Below, piece by piece: positions 1 through 8,817 of a DNA stretch of 9,840 nucleotides (position 1 is its first letter; the number at the start of each line of letters is the position of its first letter). The position numbers were made by a program, and so were the translations under genes. The stretch covers positions 1 through 9,840 of the forward strand of contig JAHIPW010000022.1 in NCBI GenBank assembly GCA_018903055.1. Direction: 5' to 3'. A model generated the notes under the pieces. That model searched no databases and had not been told where the DNA came from. It worked only from the letters and a program-made list of their open reading frames with translations. This DNA is from DRGV01 sp018903055 [NCBI: bacterium]. Its GTDB lineage: Bacteria > UBP18 > UBA7526.

Positions 1-700
1 TTAAATCTGGGGCGAACCCCCCTTCATCGCCCACTGCGGTGGAATAGCCCTTCTCTTTCAATACCTTTTTTAAATTATGAAAAACCTCTGCACCAATTCT
101 TAAGGATTCCCTGAAGTCCTCTCCTAAAGGGATGATCATGAATTCCTGCAGATCGACATTATTGTCCGCATGCTTCCCCCCATTCATGACATTCATCATA
201 GGGACTGGTAATCGGTAATCGGCCCCTCGCATTCGCTCGGGATAAATCTTGTCCCGAACCTTTAGGTGAGGGATAATCGGTAATCGGTAAATTTTTCTAA
301 TGTATTGATAGGGGGGTAATTCTGAAAAGAGAGCTCCTGCTTTGGCAACTGCTAAGGAGACCCCTAAGATGGCATTGGCTCCCAATCTCTCCTTATTCTC
401 CGTCCCATCCAGATCGATCATCAATCTATCGATCTCTTCCTGCTTGGTAACGTCCCTTCCTATCAGATTAGGAACAATTACTTCATTCACATTTTTAACC
501 GCTTTTAATACTCCTTTTCCTGAGTATCTCTTCTCATCTCCGTCTCTCAGTTCCAGTGCCTCATGTTCACCCGTAGAAGCCCCACTGGGGACAGCGGCTC
601 TTCCGAAAATTCCATTTTTCAGAATTACGTCCACCTCAACCGTTGGATTCCCTCTGGAATCTAATATCTCCCGTGCACGAATATTTTTAATTTTTGTCAT
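1..700 (-). CDS. eno: Enolase, N-terminal 233 residues (truncated by window edge)
   Basis: Enolase converts 2-phosphoglycerate to phosphoenolpyruvate in cytoplasmic glycolysis. The translation opens [20 protein letters not shown], the classic enolase N-terminus. It then has the mobile-loop motif [16 protein letters not shown], the LPVPMMN segment, [15 protein letters not shown] (substrate His and metal-site region) and GDEGGFAP, where the catalytic Glu lies. The frame runs off the left edge, so the rest of the barrel is missing. Two ATGs lie in tandem at 703 and 700. GGAGG at 706-710 sits 5 nt before the second, which I chose; the first overlaps the upstream stop as ATGA, so translation is probably coupled to the TPR gene. 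Residues about 137-165 are an extra segment compared with usual enolases, where about 8 residues join YQY to LPVP. The segment is encoded by a heptamer-hairpin-heptamer repeat element. Family identity is certain; the effect of the insert is unknown. Confidence 0.96.
207..292. repeat. Heptamer-hairpin-heptamer element inside eno
   Basis: Two copies of GGTAATC (207-220, plus GG) and three related units (272-292) flank a core of about 50 bp. The core contains TCGGGA/TCCCGA arms around a 9-nt loop (near 237-257) and outer CCCTCGC/GTGAGGG arms (224-230 and 265-271, one G-T pair). On the minus strand the heptamers encode YRLP at both borders. The core 14-mer CGGGATAAATCTTG at 238-251 occurs again, inverted, at 9490-9503. 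The element lies in frame in the linker between YQY and LPVPMMN of enolase. Confidence 0.85.
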
Positions 701-3078
701 CATTGCCTCCATTTAATCCATCGGGCAGGCAGGGTAGCGGGATATTCCTTTAAAACTTTTTCGAACGCTTCCTCTGCTAAGTCATATCTCTCCAGGTCTT
801 TATAGCACTCTCCTATGCGATACTGAGCAAAGGAAGCCCTATGAGACTTAGGGTATTTTTCTAATACTCTCTGGTATTCTTTAATTGCCTGTTCGTAATC
901 CTTTAGTTCAAACTGATAGATATATCCGATATAGTATTGAACAGAGGAAGCAAGGTGGGCTTTGGGATAGCGGGATACGAGTTCTCGACATACTCCGATA
1001 GACTCCTGGTATTTACCCTCTTTCCATAACTTATACTCCAGGGTATAGAGTCTCAGGGGCTCACCCTTATAATCATCCCCTTTAGTGATAGCATCTACCT
1101 TTAATTCGGCATCATAGTCTGCTCCGCTTCTCGGATAGCGCTCGATAATCTCTTGATACTTAGCCAGTGCCTTCTTATACTCCCCCTTATACTCATAACA
1201 TTCCCCAATTCCCAATAAGGCATCTGCTACCTGACGACTCTGAGGGTAATTGTCAATGAGCCTCTGATATTCGTTAAAAGCCTTCTCATAATTACCTAAC
1301 CTATGGCCGATAATTTCGGCAATCTCCCATTGAGCCCGAGGAGCCCACTTACTTTCCGGATGTTCATTGATTATTTGCTGATAAGTAACCAGGGCCTGGG
1401 GGAAGTATTTTTCTTTTTTATAGATCCGGGCAATGGCCATCTGAAATTCTAAGAATTTTTCTGGAAATTTATCCTGGGCTTCTTGATAGAGTTGGAATGC
1501 CTCCCGAGACTTTCCCTGTCTTTGGTAGATCTCCCCCAGCATCTTGTAGTCTTCTAAAGTCTTTTTGGGAATTGGGGCCTCCTGTGTCCAGCTGATTACT
1601 GGAGGAGTAATAGCCTCCTTCTCTCTCGTTTTGAAGGCAGTTTCTATCTTTATTGGAGAATTCTTCCTCACGTAATCGCATAGCGCTTTAATAACATATC
1701 CACAATAAATTTTGTTGCTTCCCTTTTTTAATATTTTGAAAGGTCCGGTACCATGTTGTAATAGGTATTCATTTGATGTCACTAAATAATATCGCTCTGG
1801 GTCTAATGGTTTATTATTCACCTTAACTACTTTTCCAAATTCAATTCCGGAAGCCAAAACATTTCGGTTATATGAGCGAGCAAATTCCTGAAGGTCCTTG
1901 CCCCTTAATTCAAAGGTAACTATTCTATTTCCAAAAGGGAGCATATCAACAAGGTCAGAATATTTTATTATACCTTTCTTTAATCCATCTCTTATTCCCG
2001 GGCTATTATAAATAACAATTTCAGCATCTGTTGATTCCTTAATGGCATTCAAAACGAGTTCTCCGGCAGGTGAACTCCTGCCCAAACTATGAGAAACATT
2101 TTCTGCGGCCTCCCCTACCGTTTCATCTAATATTCTACCCACTCGCAATTTCTCTTGCTGGGCAATTCTGTTAACTTTTTCATCCATTCGGACTCTATTC
2201 CTATCCAATATTATTTGTTCTTCTGAGAGAACTACCAGGGGGCTACTCCGCCTGATTAGTTTTGTGGGAAATTTATTTTTTCTTACTTTTAGTTTTAGGT
2301 GGCCGAGGTTATCTCCTTTAAACACACCCATTGTATATGAGATTGCCATTCCGGTATTTTCGATTAGTTCAGCCTTAGATGGAGGTCCAAATTGGGACCA
2401 ATGCGCCAAGACAACATCAACCCCCATCTTTTTATATTTATTCCAGTCTCGTCCTCTGGCATCGTGAGCCAGTAATACCACTACATCAACCTTCTCTCTT
2501 TTCATTCTCCTTACTATTTTTCTATGTTCTTCGTAAGGATTTTTCTTATCGGGTGGGCCATAAAGGGCGCCAATGATGCCCACTGAGATTCCAGATTTTT
2601 TTATGATTGTGAAAGGAACGGCGGATGGAATTGCACCATATGCTTTATAAAAATCACTATTTCCTCTAATGAGAGGCATATTTAATAATTCGAGAGAGGA
2701 AGAATATACATCGAGATTTCCAAGGAGAATAGCATCATAATTGGCTGCGTTAGCCAGCCGCGCAGGAGTTTCACCACCGGTAACAAGAGCCGCACCACTA
2801 CCCCATTGTCCATCGCCAGCATCTAATAAAAAAACCGTTTCGCCTTCTTTGCCAAGGGAATCTACAAATCCGGCAATTGCTGCCCATCCTCCAAATCCAT
2901 CCGGAGGTTCTATATATCCATTAATAGCCCCGGTATGTACAAAATGAATGATTCTCTCTCCGCCTTTTCTTTCTCTTTTCTCAATATCCTTTTGGGCCCA
3001 GGCAGTAGAGACGGTGATGCTCAATATTAAGACCAATCCAATAGTAATCCCAATGACAATATTTTTTCCTCTGTGCAT
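700..3078 (-). CDS. Secreted 5'-nucleotidase-fold protein with C-terminal TPR array; metal site degenerate
   Basis: A 792-residue exported protein. A signal peptide spans residues 1-28 (KNIVIG start, hydrophobic core, AWA cleavage site). Residues about 42-270 resemble the calcineurin-like metallophosphatase domain of UshA/5'-nucleotidases: FLLDAGD at 83-89, ILLGN at 117-121, VVLLAHD at 200-206. Residues about 316-475 match the C-terminal nucleotidase domain: [27 protein letters not shown] at 380-384, and [16 protein letters not shown]. After a proline-rich linker, residues about 507-782 hold at least five TPR-like repeats. Canonical metal ligands are missing: the usual NDxHG is TGAING (49-54), GNHEFD is GNLDVY (120-125), and GHTH is AHWSQ (225-229). 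Catalysis is therefore doubtful and a binding or scaffold role is my inference. GGAG lies 7 nt before the ATG. It follows glycerate kinase by 40 bp with no terminator and overlaps eno by ATGA. The last residues (TLPAR) come from a CCTGCCTGCC-type repeat. Confidence 0.85.
721..742. repeat. GGGCAGGCAGGG repeat fragment at 3' end of the TPR gene
   Basis: The plus strand reads CGGGCAGGCAGGGTAGCGGG. It is similar to the CCTGCC/GGCAGG repeat family at 9447-9488. It encodes the ATLPAR tail after the last TPR helix, just upstream of the TGA stop. Confidence 0.5.
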
Positions 3079-3118
3079 ACCGCTTCTCCTTACAGAAATT
3101 GTAACATAATTTAGGCTT

Positions 3119-8658: not shown

Positions 8659-8682
8659 TGCCTGTCCGGTGGCCAGACGGGC
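8659..8682. repeat. GC-rich hairpin GCCTGTC/GACGGGC
   Basis: GCCTGTC and GACGGGC (one G-T pair) enclose a short loop. It shares TGCCTGTCC with the start of the hairpin at 8760, suggesting related repeat cores. Confidence 0.5.
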
Positions 8683-8693
8683 GCCACTTGATT

Positions 8694-8817
8694 TTTTAGA
8701 TTATCAGAGCATCAGATTCACTCTGACCCTCTGATATCTGAATTCTCCATCTGGTATTCTGCCTGTCCCGTTGGAAGCCGCAGGCTTGCCCACGGGGGTA
8801 ATCTGATACTCTAATTA
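8694..8817. repeat. Array-hairpin-array element at the 3' end of the zinc-ribbon gene
   Basis: Degenerate 7-8 bp units containing ATCAGA or TCTGA (about 8697-8760) precede a hairpin core (8761-8798). The core stems are CCCGT/ACGGG (8767-8771, 8792-8796) and AAGCC/GGCTT (8775-8779, 8783-8787). TAATCTG and ATACTCT heptamers follow to about 8817. The stop codon of the zinc-ribbon gene (8815-8817) is at the array edge. No ORF is supported in 8645-8814. Confidence 0.7.

Follow-up and report, generated by a model that had tools for sequence, protein, structure and literature searches.

What allows short tandem arrays that share a period, though not a sequence, to fill the spacers of a bacterial genome and to sit inside its conserved genes without breaking the reading frame? 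This question is raised by contig JAHIPW010000022.1 (assembly GCA_018903055.1) of DRGV01 sp018903055, a bacterium of the UBP18 lineage, which we analyzed over its full length of 9,840 nucleotides (here, the window). An initial annotation of this DNA had described a family of arrays with 7- or 8-bp units that invades both intergenic DNA and genes, and had suggested a generating process rather than the copying of one fixed element. We read the arrays as heptamer/octamer-class long simple sequence repeats (LSSRs), inherited in place, renewed by primer misalignment, and kept in frame by selection, and we give this reading a probability of roughly 0.6.

The window is an entire contig of a 1.085-Mb, 191-contig genome (G000), which we sampled as the window plus 39 further contigs (227,388 bases; for the most part one contig in ten, counted from two different starts). 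Five relatives of the same family (G001 to G005) complete a set of six genomes that are 53 to 93% complete, with samples from G001, G002, G004, and G005 that are small (34 to 60 kb). Within the window, Tandem Repeats Finder reported ten arrays of 7/8-bp (or 14/16-bp) period and one of 9-bp period, and exact runs of at least nine matches numbered six at lag 7 and two at lag 8, vs. 0.06 and 0.08 in 100 shuffles, an excess of about 100-fold at lag 7. The period claimed by the initial annotation is therefore a property of this DNA. A census made with a single scoring rule (score of at least 12) found 20.7 period-7 and 13.2 period-8 arrays per 100 kb of G000 (null, 0.1 and 0.0), along with 1.8 and 4.0 for periods 9 and 10 (null, at most 0.1), and zero arrays with periods of 5, 6, 11, or 12 in the 227-kb sample. 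By period, the arrays thus belong to the heptamer-type LSSRs, in which units of 5 to 11 nt exceed chance and 7 is prominent.

Arrays were present in all six family genomes. Pooled over 20 control genomes (379 kb), period 7 reached 1.6 arrays per 100 kb, nearly all of them from G008; arrays were also found in three of four Omnitrophota loci, in one deltaproteobacterial locus, and in one Bacteroidetes locus. Two genomes that possess the mismatch-repair domain MutS_V, G083 (locus L177) and G008 (L150), carry dense 7-bp arrays, 11 and 5 in 20 kb, respectively. Across the six family genomes (915 kb), 250 arrays formed 217 clusters, of which 136 were intergenic or lay across a gene end and 81 lay within simple open reading frame (ORF) calls. 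This corresponds to 1.39 clusters per kb of noncoding DNA vs. 0.11 per kb of genic DNA, a difference of about 13-fold, so that the period scan by gene and spacer proposed in the initial annotation returned, on these samples, both a peak at 7/8 and the noncoding preference of heptamer-type LSSRs. By Pfam, the G000 genes with arrays include nadC, pheT, lpxK, and those for a GHMP kinase, a pyridoxal phosphate (PLP) enzyme, and a KDO transferase; a gene for a Mur-ligase-type enzyme has three array clusters, and an aspartokinase-like gene has a 9-bp array.

The sites of the genic arrays are inherited. We matched orthologous sites through 250-bp flanks, by which 24 of the 72 genic 7/8-bp clusters were mappable, the relatives being partly sampled. 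The relative also had an array in 49 of 59 ortholog comparisons (19 of the 24 mapped clusters), vs. 0 of 215 comparisons for random genic sites (133 mapped sites). As the 24 clusters are not independent, we merged them by orthology into 14 sites, of which nine have an array in at least one relative. Spacers keep their arrays more weakly (odds ratio, 3.5; p = 9e-4). The arrays are thus not a recent invasion, as the word "invades" had implied: old sites bear young words. Nor do the relatives carry the same residues on nonrepetitive DNA, which the initial annotation had named as a refuting result; their DNA is repetitive too, with different words. Assembly or binning error, for which the fragmentation of metagenome assemblies might speak, has a negligible probability, as arrays recur, in frame, at common sites of six separate assemblies.

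While the sites persist, the words change to different degrees. Four eno words, each from a different genome, are in register (AATCGGT, AATTGGT, AACYCGT, and AAACCGT), and their arrays are equal in length once a palindromic insert in G000 is set aside. The ksgA site carries a dual 8-bp array in five genomes, with words zero to two substitutions apart, and a 7-bp array instead in G002. The pdxA site has GTTCGGA in G000 and G004, TGCAAAA in G001 and G005 (split by a palindrome in G005), TTTTGAT in G002, and no array in G003, and nadC has CCTGAAG in G000 and ATTTTGC in G003. Words at the nadC, pdxA, and PLP enzyme sites differ at three to four of seven positions, much as random words do (mean, 3.5). 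Because third-position divergence between G000 and G003 (~32%) is below some word differences, such replacement goes beyond what drift alone would predict. Neighboring segments of the window at 4345 to 8351 give conflicting gene trees; recombination between genera is therefore possible and may move some array alleles.

These observations also bear on whether a site could merely look inherited, with a few tolerant gene segments being refilled repeatedly by the frequent birth of arrays. Unrelated words at several sites would be expected from such independent rebirth, as would empty orthologs, and both occur: at five of the 14 sites the compared relatives have no array, pheT in G004 is an apparently true empty site that is 27 bp shorter, and one further site is empty in G003. 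(Among these other five is the GHMP kinase site, at which G003 has the same word, split by a palindrome.) However, no relative had an array at any of the 133 mapped random genic sites, related words in register occur in eno and for the most part in ksgA, and the dual layout of ksgA is common to five genomes. We therefore regard rebirth as a possible, though clearly the less likely, explanation of the shared sites.

Within genes, changes in array length respect the frame. Array length differed by a multiple of 3 in 60 of 67 genic comparisons vs. 9 of 42 noncoding ones, and among indels of at least 9 bp in 50 aligned gene pairs, 10 of 11 were multiples of three. It is probable that the frame is held by selection, and the prevalence of multiples of 3 suggests that these genes are not phase-variable contingency loci switched on and off by frame. 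The AlphaFold model of PdxA (mean predicted local distance difference test score, 90) places the array-coded residues, ~46 to 57, with good confidence at the end of helix 43 to 52 and in the following loop; as modeled, the array has replaced a normal segment rather than added a disordered tail.

Behind the observed period, inherited sites, changed words, kept frame, and inverted partners (described below), we infer primer misalignment at a grip of 7 to 8 nt. The replicating DNA polymerase would realign the primer end by one word of 7 to 8 nt, possibly the length of the gripped duplex, and realignment would duplicate or delete units. Repeated gain and loss would homogenize each array, spreading mutations through it so that all of its units drift together; elsewhere an entirely different word would take over, possibly because the array regrew from a new seed or recombined with that of a relative. 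If the primer realigned on the opposite strand, near-inverted partner arrays would result. Selection would purge frame-breaking states in genes, so that most remaining arrays lie in spacers, at gene ends, or in segments that tolerate them.

Partner arrays are indeed in excess. Near-inverted partners lay within 80 bp of 29 of 235 arrays vs. 3.3 expected, and direct partners more than 10 bp away accompanied 17 of 235 vs. 4.7 expected (score of at least 10 in both cases); the direct excess is real too, though smaller than the inverted one. Arrays that are their own inverse numbered 42 of 235 vs. 7. The inverted-partner excess is also what one would expect if the arrays were kept for a function, as RNA hairpins, terminators, or protein-binding iterons, and the GTTA core of the 10-bp arrays, found in 15 of 18, points the same way. 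Against this, words turn over at fixed sites, the same spacer has different words in relatives, and many arrays lie within enzymes, which makes retention for function highly improbable.

The 137 period-7 arrays comprise 68 distinct words and the 80 period-8 arrays comprise 45, consistent with the earlier statement that the period is shared and the words are not; the second half of that statement needs qualifying, as words recur within the genome far above chance (see below). DNA flanking same-word arrays was common to only 2 of 41 pairs in G000 and 2 of 68 in G003, vs. 1.6% and 1.2% of all array pairs, so larger pieces were not copied, and the view that the arrays are not copies of one fixed element stands. 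We also considered copying of words between distant phyla and rejected it, since 2 of 45 arrays were shared vs. a null of 3.9.

Slippage remains the leading candidate among the generating processes that had been proposed, and of an insertion machinery we found no trace. A dedicated enzyme that writes arrays with a fixed step of 7 to 8 nt, either templated in the manner of telomerase or transposase-like, would account for the sharp period, the preferred word cores, and the near-inverted partners. Yet reverse transcriptase (RVT_1) and Y1 transposase (Y1_Tnp) domains were each found in none of the six family genomes, at the completeness given above; 68 distinct period-7 words are hard to fit to one template; and similar arrays in distant phyla have other words. 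Such an enzyme is, in our judgment, quite improbable. By the same absences, the palindromes described below lack the cognate Y1 transposase of a repetitive extragenic palindrome (REP)/REP-associated tyrosine transposase (RAYT) system, and the genomes lack the reverse transcriptase of diversity-generating and other retroelements.

The loss of mismatch repair could also let arrays grow. MutS_V and DNA_mis_repair (MutL) domains were found in none of the six family genomes, 53 to 93% complete as they are, while RecA was found in all six; NucS gave weak matches only, of 36 to 44 residues, in five of the six, and a DNA polymerase IV domain was found in two. In a mixed set, moreover, four of five genomes without MutS_V had an array of period 7 to 10 in the DNA sampled, vs. 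8 of 29 with it. In Omnitrophota, on the other hand, where MutS_V was found in 42 of 117 genomes and not found in 75, samples with MutS had 6.1 arrays per 100 kb (3 of 16 genomes) vs. 2.8 for those without (6 of 19), with p = 0.59 in a rank test that kept one masked stretch. (Four of 20 MutS-positive samples and 1 of 20 MutS-negative samples were masked with N and were dropped.) The richest genome, G083, has MutS, and loops of this size may escape MutS in any case. Because array load in Omnitrophota does not follow MutS, its loss is not the general cause of arrays, and as an explanation of them it is very improbable; within the family, loss of MutS and MutL may raise turnover.

Several results weigh against our own reading, among them that MutS loss does not go with arrays in Omnitrophota. 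Same-word pairs within G000 numbered 23 for period 7 and 18 for period 8, vs. 1.6 and 0.16 under a genomic null, and GTAA occurs in 33 of 137 period-7 words and GATC in 15 of 137, vs. 4.8% and 2.4% of background heptamers; plain slippage of random seeds explains neither the recurrence of words nor these favored cores. Outright replacement of a word at a kept site is not predicted by drift alone, and slippage alone accounts for neither full replacement nor preferred cores. The end units of arrays are not clearly more decayed than the inner ones (unit mismatch of 0.066 for first, 0.100 for inner, and 0.127 for last units), and only 13 of 157 arrays showed a two-unit higher-order pattern. One might instead imagine a process tied to replication and advancing in fixed steps of 7 to 8 nt, in which site and period are heritable and a polymerase activity overwrites the word on either strand, although we consider it improbable; if true, fixed-step rewriting at heritable sites would be the bacterial equivalent of making repeats with no fixed template.

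Palindromic GC-rich inserts, 18 to 51 bp long here, probably form a second, separate layer that sometimes lands inside arrays. The clearest case is the eno array (207 to 290, minus strand), where GGTAATC, as written on the plus strand, forms 2.3 units (207 to 222) and 2.4 units (274 to 290) around a palindromic insert of 51 bp, or 17 codons, at 223 to 273, in frame and with a fold energy z of -4.8 relative to shuffles. This insert is missing from all three aligned relatives (G003, G005, and G002), in which the array is unsplit and made of other words. Conserved genes carry similar short in-frame palindromic inserts, each found in one genome but not in its relative, at L025:6172-7122, L029:10536-12212, and L029:5740-6669; an apparent insert in G002 recA proved to be a run of N. 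Among eight in-gene indels of at least 15 bp between G000 and G003, a scripted palindrome score flagged one, and folding of the same set gave three strong cases (z of -4 or lower) and three GC-rich weak ones (z of -1.7 to -2.5). Of these eight, two coincided with a 7/8-bp array and a third with a 9-bp array, vs. 15 of 1,580 random genic stretches, an association that is suggestive only. The initial annotation had placed a hairpin core often between two arrays; as a rule this fails, since 8 of 136 noncoding clusters had a perfect GC-rich stem of at least 8 bp no more than 40 bp away, vs. 11.2 expected.

The minus strand of the window encodes a cold-shock protein, a zinc-finger protein, two SurA-like proteins, PdxA, KsgA, glycerate kinase, a 5'-nucleotidase/TPR protein, and the start of Eno. 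Four in-frame genic arrays had been claimed. Those of eno, ksgA, and pdxA stand, as Pfam supports the genes around them and they are in frame in relatives as well. The ksgA pair consists of an array of the 8-bp unit GTCTGCCA in 16-bp higher-order pairs (4851 to 4885, minus strand) and its near-inverted partner with the unit AACCGGGT (4892 to 4927, minus strand); the pdxA array (6162 to 6198, minus strand; unit AACTCCG) encodes the residues discussed above. The fourth, in the second surA-like gene, is doubtful as a genic array because the relatives offer an ATG downstream of the array region, immediately before the signal peptide, in five of five cases; the G000 frame that reads through the array from 7452 may go untranslated. 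The site is nevertheless one of the nine shared ones, though upstream of the start codon in relatives. In this region lie a GTAACGA array upstream of the signal-peptide codons (7308 to 7323), a GC-rich double stem-loop (7324 to 7362; RNA fold of -23.2 kcal/mol, a value without a shuffle control), and an AACCCGT array (7376 to 7440). At 9.3 units this last is the longest in the window; the two eno arrays fall short of the three to nine units originally stated and are a single array in the three aligned relatives.

The remaining arrays of the window are intergenic or lie at a gene end. A self-inverse array of CAGGCTT/AAGCCTG words (4300 to 4328) lies ~14 bp past the ksgA stop, an 8-bp array of CTCACTTT (5277 to 5325) grades into related words toward the pdxA stop, and a further 8-bp array consists of TTCGCGTC (8398 to 8432). 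The AAAGTGAG word class was found in six G000 arrays. The stops of pdxA and ksgA, which had been said to touch arrays, are ~15 to 20 bp from one or overlap its fading end; for the zinc-ribbon gene, a 9-bp array (9307 to 9336, minus strand) lies at the start codon, and none is listed at the stop. At ~6385 to 6440 of the window, GGTATCGGAACTTCAATAA is followed by a hairpin, and its 13-mers recur at five to seven separate places in the 227-kb sample, marking it as a dispersed repeat.

Two further classes were seen in passing. The 10-bp GTTA arrays (e.g., L029 4430-4516, L021 3757, L120 7804, and L131 3984) often consist, by eye, of two inverted arms flanking an A-rich center such as AAAAGCAAC, and may be a distinct element. 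In an Acidobacteria locus (L070), four of five 9-bp arrays have the AAACACACG word, arranged as inverted pairs.

To our knowledge, no cause of bacterial heptamer repeats has been put to the test in the decades since they became known. Among the matches listed in the open-licence literature, there was no account of this family or of genic array sites that outlive their words, which is weak evidence of absence. The family offers a natural series, with the same genes, the same sites, and different words, in which the frame itself records the action of selection. It could shed light on the origin and persistence of such repeats, and it indicates that arrays whose units are not multiples of three can persist in conserved enzymes. 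In having several heptamer words per genome, it resembles the short tandemly repeated repetitive (STRR) heptamers of filamentous cyanobacteria.

Heptanucleotide LSSRs are, like the arrays described here, dominated by period 7, mostly intergenic, and patchy across phyla (PMC4679880, PMC4692102); here, unlike there, period 8 almost matches period 7 in frequency, 10-bp arrays form a further class, conserved enzymes contain arrays, and sites outlive words. Both papers credit Mrazek et al. 2007 with the proposal that a 7-nt polymerase contact causes slippage, and the present family makes that old proposal directly testable. The GGGAATC and GGGGA(C/T)T heptamers of Xanthomonas and Nostoc are mostly found in corresponding spacers of two related species, vary in length and sequence, and include some inverted pairs, as here, but they form one word class per organism and have G-quadruplex potential, whereas many words occur here; Calothrix has three heptamers (PMC4692102). 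The TAACTGA repeats of marine Beggiatoaceae are likewise direct heptamer repeats in spacers, at gene ends, and in some ORFs, but consist of a single word, located mostly just upstream of start codons, with related heptamers being rare (PMC4679880), as opposed to 68 period-7 words here.

Two other systems also have repeats or inserts within genes. Borg tandem repeats are fast evolving, arise independently, lie in spacers and ORFs, and include a conserved hotspot with differing repeats; those in ORFs encode perfect amino acid repeats, often disordered, in extracellular or membrane proteins (PMC9879509), whereas the genic units here, of 7 or 8 bp, are not multiples of 3 and lie in cytoplasmic enzymes. 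Rickettsia palindromic elements are in-frame inserts in unrelated metabolic genes, a likeness limited to our GC palindromes, and form families of ~150 bp (PMC10969869). The arrays themselves are no such element, as flanks are common to so few same-word pairs. The main addition to the pattern that the initial annotation correctly saw is that inherited genic sites outlive their words.

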